From Solidesulfovibrio carbinolicus (GTDB taxonomy: Bacteria; Desulfobacterota; Desulfovibrionia; Desulfovibrionales; Desulfovibrionaceae): a stretch of 64,000 nucleotides of DNA. The notes below the pieces were generated by a model. It saw nothing but the letters and a program-made list of their open reading frames with translations, did not search any database and had not been told where the DNA came from. Each line of letters starts with the position of its first letter. The first letter of the stretch is position 1. The position numbers and the translations under genes were made by a program. The stretch is taken from the NCBI RefSeq assembly GCF_004135975.1, contig NZ_CP026538.1:248001-312000 (forward strand). Direction: 5' to 3'. Shown here piece by piece: positions 18,838 through 50,787 of this stretch.

Positions 18838-18839
18838 CC

Positions 18840-18980
18840 GGGTCCAGGGCGCTGCCCTGGACCCGGCAGGGCGCTGTCCTGCACCCGCTGGGACGCTGTC
18901 CCAGACCCTGCCAGGGCGCTGCCCTGGACCCGGCAGGACGCTGTCCTGCACCTGCCAGGGCGCTGCCCTGGACCCGCCGG
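18840..18980 (+). repeat. Six-unit tandem hairpin array, 22-23 bp period
   Basis: Six units, each a 6-bp stem around GCT, with GCT at 18851, 18873, 18895, 18918, 18940 and 18962. Arms change together: CAGGGC/GCCCTG, TGGGAC/GTCCCA, CAGGAC/GTCCTG. One unit has a G-T pair. Units are separated by ACCC plus a few bases, and the array ends in a GGGGGG/CCCCCC hairpin (18978-19000). Confidence 0.85.
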
Positions 18981-19068
18981 GGGGATAATCCCCCCGGACC
19001 CCCTGATTGTCTGCGGCGGGCGGGCGAGCCGACAGGGGGGCCGGGAGGTGTCGGCGGACGCCGAAGAA

Positions 19069-19136
19069 GGGGCCGGAATCGCGCCCGGCGATGCCGCCGC
19101 TGGCGCGGCAGGCTCGCCGGACCCGATTCCGGCCCC
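19069..19136. repeat. Long hairpin with 12-bp outer arms
   Basis: GGGGCCGGAATC pairs with GATTCCGGCCCC; inside are CCGGCGA/TCGCCGG and GCCGC/GCGGC. It is followed by ACGGCCCC-caaagc-GGGGCCGT and then GGATAG, the same order as the long hairpin at 29911. Confidence 0.75.
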
Positions 19137-19251
19137 TACCACGCCACGGCCCCCAAAGCGGGGCCGTAGGGATAGCATTTTTGCTGACAGGATAGGGATG
19201 CCCGGAACCTGGGCATCCCCCATAGAGAAGTTTTTGGGGAAGGAGGGGGCT

Positions 19252-19295
19252 CGGGGGAGGAAACCCCTTTTTTCAAAAAGGGGTTTCCTCCCCCG
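19252..19295. repeat. Perfect 21-bp inverted repeat upstream of a glycosyltransferase
   Basis: Arms CGGGGGAGGAAACCCC+T5 and A5+GGGGTTTCCTCCCCCG with a 2-nt spacer. It ends 35 bp before ATG 19331 and could be a terminator or a structure in the 5' leader. Confidence 0.75.
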
Positions 19296-19330
19296 ATTCC
19301 TCTTCATTCTTTCCTCATAAGGACAAGCAT

Positions 19331-28920: not shown

Positions 28921-29775
28921 ATGAGCAAACTCATCCGTGAACAGGCCGAAGGCGGCCGCCTGCATATCGACTCGCCGCTCATGGGCGAATCCCTGGTCAG
29001 CCGGGCGCTTTTGGCCACCCAGGGCCAGCGCGAAGTCTTCCGTATGCACCCCGACGTGAACGTGCTCAAAATCGGCGGCCAGTCCATCATGGACCGGGGA
29101 GCCAAGGCCCTGCTGCCAATCCTCGACGAACTGCTCAAGGCCAAGGAACAGCACAAGATCATCCTCATGACCGGCGGCGGCACCCGGGCGCGCCACATCT
29201 ACAACATCGGCCTGGAACTCGGCATGCCCACGGGCGTGCTGTCCAAGCTCGGCGACAAGGTGGCCTCCCAGAACGCCGAAATCCTCTCCGTGCTCCTGGC
29301 CAAGCACGGCGGCGTGCGCATCGGCCACGGCGACCACCTCGAACAGCTCACCATGTTCTGCCAGCTCGGCTACCTGCCCATCACCCCGGGCATCCCGCCC
29401 TACGGCTTCTTCGAACACCCGGCCGAGGAAGGCATGATCCCGCCGCACCGCACCGACTCCGGCGCGTTCCTTCTGGCCGAAAATATCGGCGCGAAATCGC
29501 TCATTTACCTCAAAGACGAAAAGGGCCTCTACAGCGACGATCCCAAAAAGGCCAAAGACCGCGAAAAACTCGAATTCTACGGCCGCATCTCCGTCAGCGA
29601 ACTGACCGCGCTCAACCTCGACGACCTCATCGTGGAACGGCCCGTGCTGCGCTTCCTCAAACACAGCAAGGTCATCAAACAATTCCAGGTCATCGACGCC
29701 CTGCGCCATCCTGAGCACATCCTCGCGGCCCTCAACGGCGAACACGTCGGTACCATCGTTTATAAAGACGAGTAG
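28921..29775 (+). CDS. Molybdenum-storage-protein-like amino-acid-kinase-fold protein
   Basis: 284 residues; ATG 28921 preceded by GAGAGAGGG. The AAK fold is clear: VLKIGGQSIMDRGAKALLP at the start, ILMTGGGTRARHIYNIGLEL GMPTG, and DSGAFLLAENIGAKSLIYLK with DEKGLYSDDP. The long N-terminal part before the kinase fold and the TGGGTRARH loop resemble MosA/MosB, the molybdate/tungstate polyoxometalate storage cage, rather than UMP kinase; this is by recall, not search. If so, it stores Mo or W for sulfate-reducer enzymes (formate dehydrogenases and others). Confidence 0.75.
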   Translation: MSKLIREQAEGGRLHIDSPLMGESLVSRALLATQGQREVFRMHPDVNVLKIGGQSIMDRGAKALLPILDELLKAKEQHKIILMTGGGTRARHIYNIGLELGMPTGVLSKLGDKVASQNAEILSVLLAKHGGVRIGHGDHLEQLTMFCQLGYLPITPGIPPYGFFEHPAEEGMIPPHRTDSGAFLLAENIGAKSLIYLKDEKGLYSDDPKKAKDREKLEFYGRISVSELTALNLDDLIVERPVLRFLKHSKVIKQFQVIDALRHPEHILAALNGEHVGTIVYKDE

Positions 29776-29792
29776 AGAAGAGAAGACGAAGA

Positions 29793-29838
29793 GCGGGCTC
29801 TGCCCGCACCCGCCGGGGGGCTCAGCCCCCCGGACCCC
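29793..29838 (+). repeat. Class B two-hairpin repeat
   Basis: Hairpin A is GCGGGC-TCT-GCCCGC, linker ACCCG, hairpin B CCGGGGGG-CTCAG-CCCCCCGG, then ACCCC. Confidence 0.8.
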
Positions 29839-29910
29839 TGGCCTGGGCGGCAGGCGGGTGGAAGGGCGGACGGCGGCGGGCAGGCTGCGCCGTGGCGCTG
29901 CGCGCGAAGA

Positions 29911-29980
29911 TGGGGTCGGGATTTTGGCTGGGAATCTCGGCGCAAAAGCGCCGTTATTCCCAGCCAAAATCCCGACCCCA
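29911..29980. repeat. Long hairpin with 25-bp arms
   Basis: Left arm 29911-29935 begins TGGGGTCGGGATTTTGG; the right arm 29956-29980 is its exact complement. The 20-nt loop contains CGGCGC-aaaa-GCGCCG. Followed by TCGGCCCC-gaagac-GGGGCCGA (29990-30011) and GGATAG, like the copy at 19069. Confidence 0.85.
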
Positions 29981-30075
29981 CCCGGGCTCTCGGCCCCGAA
30001 GACGGGGCCGAATGGATAGAGAAAGAGCGACAGGATGGCTTGCCGATGAAAGGCTCTCTCCTGGCTCCCATTGGC

Positions 30076-30128
30076 TTGGGGGGCGTTTTGGCGGCGAGGG
30101 CTTCCCTCGCCGCCAAAACGCCCCCCAA
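30076..30128. repeat. Long hairpin with 25-bp arms and 3-nt loop
   Basis: Left arm 30076-30100 runs TTGGGGGGCGTTTTGGCGGC then GAGGG, loop CTT, right arm 30104-30128 exact complement. Directly followed by a class A repeat. Confidence 0.85.
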
Positions 30129-30133
30129 ATCAA

Positions 30134-30172
30134 GGGGGTCCGGGGGGGATTATCCCCCCGGCCGCCGGAGGC
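30134..30172 (+). repeat. Class A hairpin repeat
   Basis: GGGGGTCC - GGGGGGGATTATCCCCCC - GGCCGCCGGAGGC. The C-G flank pair is opposite to the T-A of copies at 10689 and 33667. Confidence 0.75.
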
Positions 30173-30209
30173 ATCTTCCTCTTCTCTTCTCTTGTCTTCT
30201 ATTCTTTCT

Positions 30210-30422
30210 CTACTCTTCCACCTTCTCGCCGCCGACGCCGGCGGGGTCGGTGGGCAGGTAGACCACTTCTGCGCCGATTTCCTTGGCAATGGCTTCGAGT
30301 TCACGCTTGCGGATATGTTCGGCGAAAAACTTGATGTCGCCCTGGGCGGCGACTACGCGGAAGCGGGGCTTTTTCTCGCCTTTTTCGATTTTGCGGCGTT
30401 CGCGGGCAAAGATCTTGGCCAT
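30210..30422 (-). CDS. Small basic protein, function unknown
   Basis: 70 residues from ATG 30422, CAGGAGG 5 nt upstream. Strongly charged (MAKIFARERRKIEKGEKKPR) with a compact C-terminal part (AEHIRKRELEAIAKEIGAEV). It is not a family I can name. It is divergent from the PadR gene, separated by 85 bp that carry two palindromes, so it is probably the PadR target. Confidence 0.65.
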   Translation of the reverse strand: MAKIFARERRKIEKGEKKPRFRVVAAQGDIKFFAEHIRKRELEAIAKEIGAEVVYLPTDPAGVGGEKVEE

Positions 30423-46994: not shown

Positions 46995-48602
46995 ATGCCG
47001 CGATGCAAACAGGTTATCTATGCCCTTGGCCTGCTGCTCCTGTCCGCCCTGCCGGCCCTGGCCGGGAACGATTTGCAGCTCACCATCCTCCACACCAACG
47101 ACATCCACGCCCACCTGGCCGCCTTTGACGACTTCGGCGCGTTTTGCGACCAGGAAAAGGACGCGGCCGGCAAATGCCAGGGCGGCGTGGCCCGGCTGGC
47201 CACGGCCATCGGCCGGGAGCGGGCCAAGGGCGGCAACATCCTGCTCCTCGACGCCGGGGACCAGTTCCAGGGAACGCTGTTTTTCACCAAATACAAGGGC
47301 GAGGCCCTGGCCTTTTTCATGAACCGCCTGGGCTACGACGCCACCACCCTGGGCAATCATGAATTCGACGATGGGCAAGCCACTTTGGCGAATTTTATTC
47401 GGGCGCTCAAGTTCCCGATGACAGCGGCAAATTTCGAAGCCGAAGCCTCCTCGGCGCTGCATGGTCTGGTTGTGCCGTACATCGTTCGGGAAATAGACGG
47501 CAGGAAGGTGGGAATCATCGGCGTGGCCCAGGTCAAGACGCCGCAAATGTCCAGCCCAGGCCCGGGCGTCAGCTTTTCCGCGCCCGGGGAGGCCGTCAAA
47601 AAAGTCGCGGCCAAGCTGCGCGGCCAGGGCGTGGACATCCTCATTGCGCTCAGCCACGCGGGCTTAAGCGGCGACAAGAAGCTGGCCGAAAAAGTCCCGG
47701 ACCTCGACGTCATCGTCGGCGGCCACAGTCATGTGCTGCTGGCCAACGGCGTTTCCGAAGCTGTCGGCCCCAGCCCGTACGTGGTGGAACACCCCGGCGG
47801 CGGCAAGACCCTCATCGTCACCGCCGGCTACTGGGGCCGCTACCTGGGCGATCTGCGCGCCACCTTCGACGTCGCCGGCCGCGTCGCCGCCTACGGCGGC
47901 AACCCCATCCGCCTCGACGGGGCCGTGCCCGAGGACTCGGCCACCCGGGCCGAGGTCGAACGCTACGCCAAGCCCCTGGCCGCCTTCCGCGAAACCGTGG
48001 TCGGCCATACGGACAAGCCCCTGGGCGCGGCCATGTGCCGCCAGGAGGAATGCGCCGCCGGCGACCTCATGGCCGAAGCGCTCCTGGCCGCCGGCCGCCG
48101 CTACAACGCCACCCTGGCCGTCGCCAACGGCGGCGGCATCCGAGCCGGCCTGGCCCCGGGCAACATCACCCTGGGCGACGTGCTGACCGCCTTCCCCTTC
48201 CCCAACACCCTCACCGTCGTCACGCTCACCGGAGCCGACATCAAGGCCGCCCTGGAGCATGGCGTGGGCAACGTCGGCCTCACCGACGGCACCGGCCGGT
48301 TCCTGCAAGTCGCCGGGCTGCGCTACGCCTACGATCCGGCCAAGCCCGCCGGCTCACGCGTCAGCCGCGTCGAGGCCGCCGACGCCGCCGGTCGGTTCAC
48401 GCCGCTAAAACCCGAAGCCGACTACCGCGTCGCCATGGCCGATTTCCTCTACCGGGGCGGCGACGGCTACACGCTTTTTGCCAAGGCCGGCCGCGACGTG
48501 GAACAGGACGGCACGCCCGTGGCCGACATCGTGGCTGACTGGCTGCGCCGCCACGACCCGGTGAAGCTGGAACTGGACGGGCGCATCACGACGACGCCGT
48601 AA
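46995..48602 (+). CDS. Secreted bifunctional 5'-nucleotidase / UshA-like protein
   Basis: 535 residues; ATG 46995 with GGAGG 8 nt upstream. Signal peptide (LGLLLLSALPALAGN), then the metallophosphatase N-terminal domain (LTILHTNDIHAHL; GNHEFDDGQ; GGHSHV with metal-binding Asp/His) and the C-terminal 5_nucleotid_C domain (VANGGGIRAGLAPGNITLGD). It cleaves nucleotides in the periplasm for phosphate or nucleoside salvage. Divergent from Lrp. Confidence 0.92.
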   Translation: MPRCKQVIYALGLLLLSALPALAGNDLQLTILHTNDIHAHLAAFDDFGAFCDQEKDAAGKCQGGVARLATAIGRERAKGGNILLLDAGDQFQGTLFFTKYKGEALAFFMNRLGYDATTLGNHEFDDGQATLANFIRALKFPMTAANFEAEASSALHGLVVPYIVREIDGRKVGIIGVAQVKTPQMSSPGPGVSFSAPGEAVKKVAAKLRGQGVDILIALSHAGLSGDKKLAEKVPDLDVIVGGHSHVLLANGVSEAVGPSPYVVEHPGGGKTLIVTAGYWGRYLGDLRATFDVAGRVAAYGGNPIRLDGAVPEDSATRAEVERYAKPLAAFRETVVGHTDKPLGAAMCRQEECAAGDLMAEALLAAGRRYNATLAVANGGGIRAGLAPGNITLGDVLTAFPFPNTLTVVTLTGADIKAALEHGVGNVGLTDGTGRFLQVAGLRYAYDPAKPAGSRVSRVEAADAAGRFTPLKPEADYRVAMADFLYRGGDGYTLFAKAGRDVEQDGTPVADIVADWLRRHDPVKLELDGRITTTP

Positions 48603-48652
48603 GGGGGAGCATGGAGCAGGGAGAGGGAGATAAGGAAGGAGAGAAAGACGAA

Positions 48653-48697
48653 TCGGGCGCTGCCCGAACCCGCCGGGGGCCTTAGGCCCCCGGACCC
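48653..48697 (+). repeat. Class B two-hairpin repeat
   Basis: TCGGGC-GCT-GCCCGA, linker ACCCG, CCGGGGGCC-TTA-GGCCCCCGG, then ACCCCC. The outer pair T-A here versus G-C at 29793 and C-G in the array is compensatory. Confidence 0.8.
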
Positions 48698-48765
48698 CCG
48701 GTCTGGTTTTGGGTCGGGTGGGCGGGGCGGTGGGCGGCGTAAGGTGGTACGGCATGAGAAAAGAC

Positions 48766-48836
48766 GGGAGCTGGAATTTTCGGGTTGCCGCCCAGGCGGA
48801 AGCCGCCCGGACGGCAACCCGGAAATTCCAGCTCCC
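48766..48836. repeat. Long hairpin with 25-bp arms
   Basis: Left arm begins GGGAGCTGGAATTTTCGGGT and the right arm ends AAATTCCAGCTCCC, one G-T pair in 25. The loop contains GGCGG-aag-CCGCC. Confidence 0.8.
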
Positions 48837-48851
48837 ACCTCGCCAGCGAAA

Positions 48852-48897
48852 GGGGCGGATTTTGGCGCGATCAAAGCCTCGCGCCAAAATCCGCCCC
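48852..48897. repeat. Hairpin with 19-bp arms
   Basis: GGGGCGGATTTTGGCGCGA pairs perfectly with TCGCGCCAAAATCCGCCCC around tcaaagcc. It shares the GGATTTTGGC core with the hairpin at 29911. Confidence 0.85.
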
Positions 48898-48927
48898 GTT
48901 CGCGTTGTTGGAGAAGAATGGCGTGGG

Positions 48928-50787
48928 TTAGGCGCAGCGCTCCAGCGTGGCCGCTTCGGCCTGGGCGGCCTGTTCGTGGTGAGCCACGAAAGCGGCAAGC
49001 CCCTCCTTGCCCATGTAGCGTTCGAGCTGACGGCGCTCGGCCTGGAGCAGATCCACCACGATAAGGCCGTCGAGGCAGTCGCCAAAGGCCTTGTCCACGT
49101 TGAAGGCCAACAGCTTGCCGCCAAGCTTGAGGTATTGGCGCAGCAGCACTGGAATGCCCTTGCGGTCGGCTTCGATGTCGTCAATGAGCGTCAGCAGGTC
49201 GTCGAGGTCGGCCACCAGGGTCTTGGCCGCCCGTGCCAGCCAGGTCTGGCCGCGAAGCGGCGTCTTGGGTTTGACGTGGCGGGCCAGGACCGGGTGGGAG
49301 ACGTGGCCTTCCAGATAACCGGCCATGAGCCGGCGCGAGGCGTGCTTGTATTCGCTGGTGATGCTGACCGGGCCGAAAAGGATGCGGTAGCGCGGCTCGC
49401 GCACGACCATCTGGGCCAGACCCTTCCAGAGCAGCAGCAGCGGGGCGTAGCTTTTCTGGTATTCCGGCCGCACAAACGACCGCCCCATCTCCAGGGCCGG
49501 GTCGATGTTGGCGAAGAACTTGGTTTTGAGCACAAACAGCGTGCTGGTGTACAGGCCATGCTTGCCCTTGGCGGCCAGCAGTTCGTCGGTGCGGCCGATG
49601 CGGTAGGCTCCGGCGATTTCCTTTTTCTCGATGTTCCAGAGGAACAGGTGGCGGTAGTGGGGATCGAACTCGTCGAGGTCGCAGGCCTTGCCCGTGCCCT
49701 CGCCCACCCGGCGGAAGGTGTATTCCCGCAGCCGCCCGATCTCTCGCAGGGCCAGGGGAATGGCCTCGGCCCTGGCTTCGATGACGGCGAATTCGCCGCT
49801 GCGGTGCAGGACGGCGCTCTCGGGCAGCCGGCCGATCTCGTCAGCCAAAAGTTCCGGGTTCACGGCCGGGATGAGGGCGTCCTGCCGGCCGCCGGTCCGG
49901 GGCGGAAACAGCGGCGGCAGCAGGCGGGGCTTGTGCGGCCGGTCGCGCAGCAAGGCCACGCGCAGGCGCAGATGGCGGGTGATGCAGGCGTCGGGGTCGG
50001 CGTTGCGGCTGGCCAGGCGCTCCAGACGGTCGGCCGGCACGGGCGAACCGATGCGGGCTTCGACGGTGGCCCCCTGCTTGTTGGCCAGCTCGCGGGGGAG
50101 CATGAGCGTGCGAAGCATCGGGTGGACGAGGCCTAAGGTCTGGAACAGGAGGCTGTTTTTGCCGGAGAAGCGGATGGGCACCACCGTGGCCCCGGTCTTG
50201 CGCACCAGCCGCGCCACCGAGGGATTCCACTGCGGGTCGGCCACGTCCAGACGGCCGTTTATCAGGCGGGGATGGGCCACGGCCCCGGCCGGGAACATGC
50301 CGAGCAGCCCGCCGCCGCGCAGCACGGACAGGCATTCCTTGAGCGGACGCACGTTGCGGGTGGTGGCGTCGGCTCCGCCGAAGGGATCGACGAACACGAA
50401 CAGCTCGCGCACCTGGGGCAGGCGCGAGAGCAGGAAATTGGCCATGATCTTGGCGTCGGGCCGCACGGCCAGGAGCATCTTGGCCAGCACCAGCCCTTCC
50501 AGGCAGCCGAAGGGGTGGTTGGCGACCACGACCACCGGCCCGGTTTTGGGGATGCGCTCCAGTTCCTCGGGGCTTACCCGGATGGACACGCCCAACTCGG
50601 TGAGCAAGGAGTCGATGTAGCCGGCGGCGTCGGCCTGGACGGGCAGCCGGCCATGGATGGCTTCGAGCTTGTCCAGGCCAAGAAGCTTGAAAAACGCCGG
50701 CCGCAGGAAGTTGGCGGCCCGGCGGGCAAACGCGCCCCTGACGTGTGGCGTGAGGTCGAAGATGTCGCGGTGGCTGGTGGTGGTCAT
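48928..50787 (-). CDS. OlsF-like bifunctional ornithine-lipid acyltransferase
   Basis: 619 residues from ATG 50787 (AGGAGAGG upstream). N-terminal half is a PlsC-type acyltransferase with N90-H91 (VVVVANHPFGCLEG) and the later FPAGAVAHPR; the C-terminal half is OlsB-like (LYTSTLFVLKTKFFANIDPA, LEMGRSFVRPEYQKSYAPLL). Such fusions make ornithine (aminoacyl) lipids, the OlsB half adding the N-acyl and the PlsC half the O-acyl chain. These phosphate-free lipids are common under phosphate limitation, which fits the neighbouring nucleotidase. Confidence 0.8.
   Translation of the reverse strand: MTTTSHRDIFDLTPHVRGAFARRAANFLRPAFFKLLGLDKLEAIHGRLPVQADAAGYIDSLLTELGVSIRVSPEELERIPKTGPVVVVANHPFGCLEGLVLAKMLLAVRPDAKIMANFLLSRLPQVRELFVFVDPFGGADATTRNVRPLKECLSVLRGGGLLGMFPAGAVAHPRLINGRLDVADPQWNPSVARLVRKTGATVVPIRFSGKNSLLFQTLGLVHPMLRTLMLPRELANKQGATVEARIGSPVPADRLERLASRNADPDACITRHLRLRVALLRDRPHKPRLLPPLFPPRTGGRQDALIPAVNPELLADEIGRLPESAVLHRSGEFAVIEARAEAIPLALREIGRLREYTFRRVGEGTGKACDLDEFDPHYRHLFLWNIEKKEIAGAYRIGRTDELLAAKGKHGLYTSTLFVLKTKFFANIDPALEMGRSFVRPEYQKSYAPLLLLWKGLAQMVVREPRYRILFGPVSITSEYKHASRRLMAGYLEGHVSHPVLARHVKPKTPLRGQTWLARAAKTLVADLDDLLTLIDDIEADRKGIPVLLRQYLKLGGKLLAFNVDKAFGDCLDGLIVVDLLQAERRQLERYMGKEGLAAFVAHHEQAAQAEAATLERCA

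Follow-up and report, generated by a model that had tools for sequence, protein, structure and literature searches.

Dispersed gene-end DNA palindromes in Solidesulfovibrio with arms that change in pairs

The window analyzed here, a stretch of 64,000 nucleotides (G000:C1:248001-312000) of the 4.69 Mb genome of Solidesulfovibrio carbinolicus, a member of a sulfate-reducing genus, contains three copies of a long-hairpin element, two of them in the intergenic regions whose features are listed below together with those of the third copy (window positions; strand in brackets where one applies).

18838-19330: intergenic region holding copy 1, between two same-direction glycosyltransferase genes
18977-19003 (+): left palindromic unit of copy 1, CCGGGGGGATAATCCCCCCGGACCCCC
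19063-19067 (+): GAAGA adjoining the copy 1 hairpin
19068-19137 (+): main long hairpin of copy 1
19145-19167 (+): follow-on short hairpin of copy 1
19170-19175: GGATAG of copy 1
19251-19296 (+): terminator-like hairpin with A and T tracts, past copy 1 and ahead of the next gene
28921-29775 (+): amino acid kinase gene
29776-30209: intergenic region holding copy 2, between a convergent gene pair
29793-29807: short GC hairpin of the copy 2 region, GCGGGCTCTGCCCGC
29813-29838 (+): left palindromic unit of the copy 2 region, CCGGGGGGCTCAGCCCCCCGGACCCC
29906-29910 (+): GAAGA adjoining the copy 2 hairpin
29911-29980 (+): main long hairpin of copy 2
29989-30011 (+): follow-on short hairpin of copy 2
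30014-30019: GGATAG of copy 2
30076-30128: second long hairpin of the copy 2 composite, with 25-nt arms that differ from the G005 ortholog by paired changes
30134-30161 (-): right palindromic unit of the copy 2 region, GGGGGTCCGGGGGGGATTATCCCCCCGG, inverted relative to the left unit
30210-30422 (-): small gene
48673-48698 (+): left palindromic unit of the third copy
48766-48836 (+): main long hairpin of the third copy (second sub-family)
48846-48903 (+): follow-on long hairpin of the third copy

In copies 1 and 2 alike, GAAGA and one further base adjoin a hairpin with a 4-nt loop and a stem of about 33 pairs, which is followed by a short GC hairpin. The main hairpin of copy 2 has 33-nt arms, paired at 31 of 33 positions and interrupted by one 2-nt internal bulge. 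An earlier note on this DNA had described two hairpins of matching layout with matched differences in their outer stems, and both the hairpins and the differences were found where it had placed them. Its inventory of the window was correct for these two copies and had overlooked the third, with its main and follow-on hairpins; likewise, its layout of copy 2 was accurate and had missed the second long hairpin alongside. The GGATAG motif that it listed is present, among the copies looked at, in copies 1 and 2 only and does not hold as a feature of the family, since other copies carry GGTGGAG, GGTTGGAG and further variants. In the third copy the follow-on hairpin has 25-nt arms and an 8-nt loop, TCAAAGCC, that is common to paralogs. 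A chance origin of the hairpins is excluded, because 11 long palindromes with a score of at least 20 were counted in 464 kb of the same genome (copy 1, with more mismatches, scores below this cut-off) vs. none in first-order Markov copies.

A BLAST search with the two window copies as query returned eight places in the S. carbinolicus genome, and a covariance model (R1) was built from seven of them, omitting c4082k, which MAFFT had shifted by one column and which R1 recovers in its own scan. That scan of the genome gave 11 clear places, with two weak matches (E 0.005 and 2.16) left out of the count; the outcomes named beforehand as refuting the earlier note, a return of two copies only or of copies without paired changes, were not observed. 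A search with window positions 47800-49700 showed that the hairpin pair at 48766-48903 belongs to a second sub-family of at least 10 places, two of which (789.7k and 4141k) are also R1 places, and the two sub-families together account for at least 19 genomic places. These places, together with the paired arm changes described below, support the original description of the element as dispersed and structured and not a product of simple slippage.

Among the 40 genomes searched, R1 matched 13 of the 14 genomes of the genus at E ≤0.001 and none of the 26 outside it, although the model is fitted to sequence as well as shape and relatives outside the genus with different arms could escape it. Matches across the genus numbered at least 428, counting each strand of a palindrome separately, and these counts are lower bounds with at most 96 candidates scored per genome. 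The sole genus genome without a match was G012, one contig of which stops inside a hairpin. Several matches in draft genomes are no more than about 350 bases away from the end of a contig, and contig ends were seen in six of the extracted loci (L126, L128, L135, L136, L139 and L141). Draft counts are probably too low, because many matches sit near contig ends, and the element itself probably fragments draft assemblies and is undercounted in them. In the drafts G006, G009, G011, G012 and G013, contigs often terminate within or near these hairpins.

The pattern of the outer arms was also located in named contigs, where 14 of 17 stretches belonged to Solidesulfovibrio or Desulfovibrio bins. The other three (Skermanella, a Burkholderiales bin and an Omnitrophota bin) were rejected as signs of a spread beyond the genus, appearing by eye to be a chance match in coding-like sequence and a different repeat. 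Long palindromes by themselves are not a mark of the genus, because they are found in other genera too: at a score of at least 18 there were 4 per 180 kb in G021, 2 per 100 kb in G032 and 0 per 100 kb in G031, and 10 per 400 kb in S. carbinolicus, 8 per 200 kb in G004 and 2 per 200 kb in G010. A literature search of limited scope returned no paper on the element in Desulfovibrio or Solidesulfovibrio.

The hairpins are part of a larger composite. In G004, 20 of the copies align across about 500 bp in the order short GC hairpins, left palindromic unit ending GGACCCCCC, GAAGATGG with the main hairpin, follow-on hairpin, more palindromes, second long hairpin and inverted right palindromic unit, and the window copies have their parts in the same order. 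Three copies with a same-direction downstream gene (L151, L160 and L163) have a different second half, which includes a hairpin flanked by A and T tracts. All 71 copies examined are intergenic. With genes called by a codon-usage caller that agrees with the frames of Pfam matches, neighbors could be assigned for 65 copies, gene orientation being unresolved at the other 6: 28 lie between convergent genes, 27 between genes running in the same direction as the element, 9 between genes running opposite to it and 1 between divergent genes. Within same-direction gaps the genes share the polarity of the element in 27 of 36 cases (binomial p 0.004, on copies that are not all independent). Most copies lie 3′ of the stop codon of a gene, within mosaics of further palindromes. 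Common short units of the form CCGGGGnnnCCCCGGACCC and GCCTCCGGCGGCC (or the complement of the latter) crowd the gene ends of the window at 18840-18990, 29790-29838 and 30134-30172.

Comparison of the copy 2 intergenic region in 13 genomes indicates that, at one and the same place, the element has been rewritten and has been gained or lost. A near-identical element is present in G000 (S. carbinolicus), G005 and G007; G008, G006 and G010 keep the layout with wholly different arms; and the site is element-free in G003 (195 bp), G004 (117 bp), G009 (46 bp) and G011 (114 bp), while in G012, G013 and G001 the region extends beyond the contig.

In the seven aligned copies of the S. carbinolicus genome, 15 of 40 stem pairs were changed on both sides (27 cells), and a one-sided change to another standard pair occurred in a single cell (G-U). 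This covariation was matched by none of 500 shuffles and by no slid register. Among the 20 similar copies of G004, both sides were changed at 6 of 37 pairs, and one stem position showed all four Watson-Crick types (A-T in 7 copies, C-G in 7, G-C in 3 and T-A in 1, with 2 unpaired).

Changes at individual loci were then read from the comparison of S. carbinolicus with G005 (about 93% identical), which covered 14 orthologous loci, 27 hairpins and 770 stem pairs. Read from these two genomes without a reconstructed ancestor, 22 pairs had changed on both sides and were still Watson-Crick, 22 had changed on one side, and no two-sided change broke pairing; random placement of an equal number of base changes gave 0.46 paired changes as expectation and a maximum of 5 in 100,000 trials. 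Three loci (L299, L301 and L296) contain length changes, so that neighboring paired sites there may represent one event. Stems were unchanged at L297 and L038, and L305, L043 and L044 had one-sided changes only. Paired changes were mostly of transversion type (17, with 5 of transition type) and one-sided changes mostly of transition type (14, with 8 transversions; Fisher p 0.014), and the paired changes cluster, often in adjacent positions. Stems differed between the two genomes at 4.3% of bases and their surroundings at 8.0%; in a separate count over seven main hairpins, 2.4% of stem bases and 8.7% of flanking bases differed, as did 6 of 28 bases in the loops. Copy 2 of S. carbinolicus and several related copies have the 2-nt bulge CT/TT; the G005 ortholog of copy 2 reads AA/TT at this point, two adjacent bases having been altered toward the other arm, and the bulge is lost. 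For two derived arm variants of G005, no exact donor was found elsewhere in G000, G005 or G007.

The element is dispersed, sits at gene ends and conserves the size of its hairpin while its sequence changes freely and its arms change together. We consider it fairly likely that it represents a genus-specific family of DNA palindromes in mosaic gene-end regions, the arms of which are kept complementary mainly by DNA template switching. The palindrome would form a hairpin during replication, the polymerase would switch template between the arms, and a change in one arm would thereby be copied into the other, so that complementarity would be maintained at the level of DNA. PMC8604942 and PMC8794818 describe template switching as a source of arm homogenization and multinucleotide changes, the former citing bacterial data in which template-switch changes favor transversions and reporting that short inverted repeats in proteobacterial noncoding orthologs are more conserved than their surroundings, and the latter stating that hairpins can be created and maintained in this way. 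From position alone, the hairpin may also be retained at gene ends as a 3′-end boundary; candidate roles would be transcript end, mRNA protection or a BIME-like topological site. The element may instead be purely selfish or passive in origin.

Selection on a transcript hairpin (a 3′ UTR fold, an RNase III site or a small RNA) through ordinary compensatory mutations is consistent with the polarity of the element behind genes, with the strong covariation and with stems that are more conserved than the flanking sequence. For an RNA fold selected on a given strand, however, G.U is expected to exceed A.C. On the gene strand, the 71 stems contained 2127 Watson-Crick pairs, 48 A.C, 19 G.U and 61 mismatches of other kinds, besides 153 columns with gaps, totals that ignore the relatedness of copies and include one copy with Ns (L115) whose stem count is unusable (5 pairs, 21 gaps). 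Eleven tRNAs from the same sequences, used as a control, had 228 Watson-Crick pairs, 8 G.U and no A.C. This mismatch pattern argues against selection on a gene-strand RNA fold. The reverse strand of the stems would read 48 G.U and 19 A.C, and a role on that strand is therefore compatible with this count. Pair changes of the transversion type, which predominate here, have no route through G-U, and no Rfam family matched at gathering score; the sub-threshold matches, many of them to microRNA families, were taken for chance matches of the kind that any long hairpin would give. Overall, we regard RNA-level selection as unlikely.

Ectopic gene conversion between copies, which would spread ready-made paired variants and make arm copying at each locus unnecessary, is likewise given a low probability. 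Copies within one genome do resemble one another, and in G005 the L039/L108 site has the state seen in other copies. Conversion nevertheless leaves the first origin of a new pair and the four pair types at one G004 position unexplained, and the two variants that were traced had no exact donor in three genomes. The mismatch counts, the loss of the bulge in G005 and this absence of donors together favor copying between the arms.

A REPIN-like miniature element moved in trans by a RAYT transposase is quite improbable. PMC3116915 describes the REPIN hairpin as one in which length and pairing capacity matter and the sides show compensatory changes, and the present element resembles it: it is dispersed and intergenic, its hairpin keeps a fixed length and shows such changes, some genomes have it and others lack it at the same orthologous site, and its similar copies form species-specific sets. 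The RAYT-type transposase suggested by the earlier note found no support, though: the Y1 transposases (PF01797) of the S. carbinolicus genome are three IS200-type genes only, with different end hairpins, and PF01797 had no match in G004 (1 contig) and G010 (3 contigs), which both bear copies, while an E. coli control was positive. Derivation of the element from the resident IS200 was also rejected, as the IS200 ends CCCCCGGCTCTGCCGGGGG and CCCCCGGCTTTGCCGGGGG are by eye unlike it. Of the three IS200-type copies (L035, L036 and L037; G000:C1:568250, C1:1697488 and C2:3920), one is an open frame, another is interrupted by an internal TAG and a further one is truncated.

Least probable is that the main hairpins are intrinsic transcription terminators, a reading that fits their location downstream of stop codons and in convergent gaps and was rejected because no T tract follows the main hairpin and a terminator scan skips the full hairpin, selecting other hairpins nearby.

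Among known systems, the element is REPIN/BIME-like, minus the transposase. With REPINs and REPs, as portrayed in PMC3116915 and PMC3733652, it shares dispersal, extragenic location, a hairpin of conserved length and compensatory changes; the latter source places REPs mainly between same-direction and convergent genes, as is the case here (1 of 65 copies divergent), and mentions CGTC REPs without a dedicated transposase. It differs in consisting of single hairpins of about 70 nt, vs. the 20-60 bp units of REPIN/REP, and in having no RAYT found in the genome and no GTAG tag at the base of the main hairpin, where the conserved columns hold none and GAAGA or a variant precedes the hairpin. Some follow-on hairpins begin with CGTC (L151, L160, L163 and L164), which is not a feature of the family. 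BIMEs are bound by gyrase, IHF or Pol I; the element resembles them in combining palindromic units with other motifs into a mosaic behind genes, and differs in sequence. ERIC/IRU and Correia/NEMIS are intergenic, of about 100-150 bp and form a long hairpin, and on these points of description the element can be likened to them. Its arm homogenization, adjacent multi-base changes, transversion excess and conserved stems are those of template-switched quasipalindromes as presented in PMC8604942 and PMC8794818; unlike those described there, it forms a whole dispersed family, compared here at orthologous bacterial sites.

Taking template switching one step further, we tentatively suggest that it rewrites both arms of these gene-end palindromes about as often as one-arm changes are seen, that length and position are selected, and that the family spreads without a dedicated transposase. 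If so, the hairpin would be conserved as a DNA shape while its sequence stays free, and the family would be a natural record of how hairpins remain perfect, most likely through one arm being copied from the other. Covariation is usually considered to prove that an RNA fold is functional. In this family it is strong and is accompanied by marks of DNA-level copying between the arms, namely pair changes that cluster and are of transversion type, a scarcity of G-U pairs and the correction of a bulge, and covariation at such loci should not be read as RNA function. The many copies and close relatives make RNA selection vs. DNA template switching testable in a natural system.

Two further observations concern the surroundings of the window copies. 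Positions 30126-30175 gave a weak match to the Clostridiales-2 RNA, under the gathering score. A separate palindrome, GGGGGAGGAAACCCCTTTTTTCAAAAAGGGGTTTCCTCCCCC with its variants, recurs at 19251-19296 of the window, at L238 and L250 and in stretches of G004 and G010; it is symmetrical, has A and T tracts and arms that likewise vary in pairs, and is probably a bidirectional terminator.
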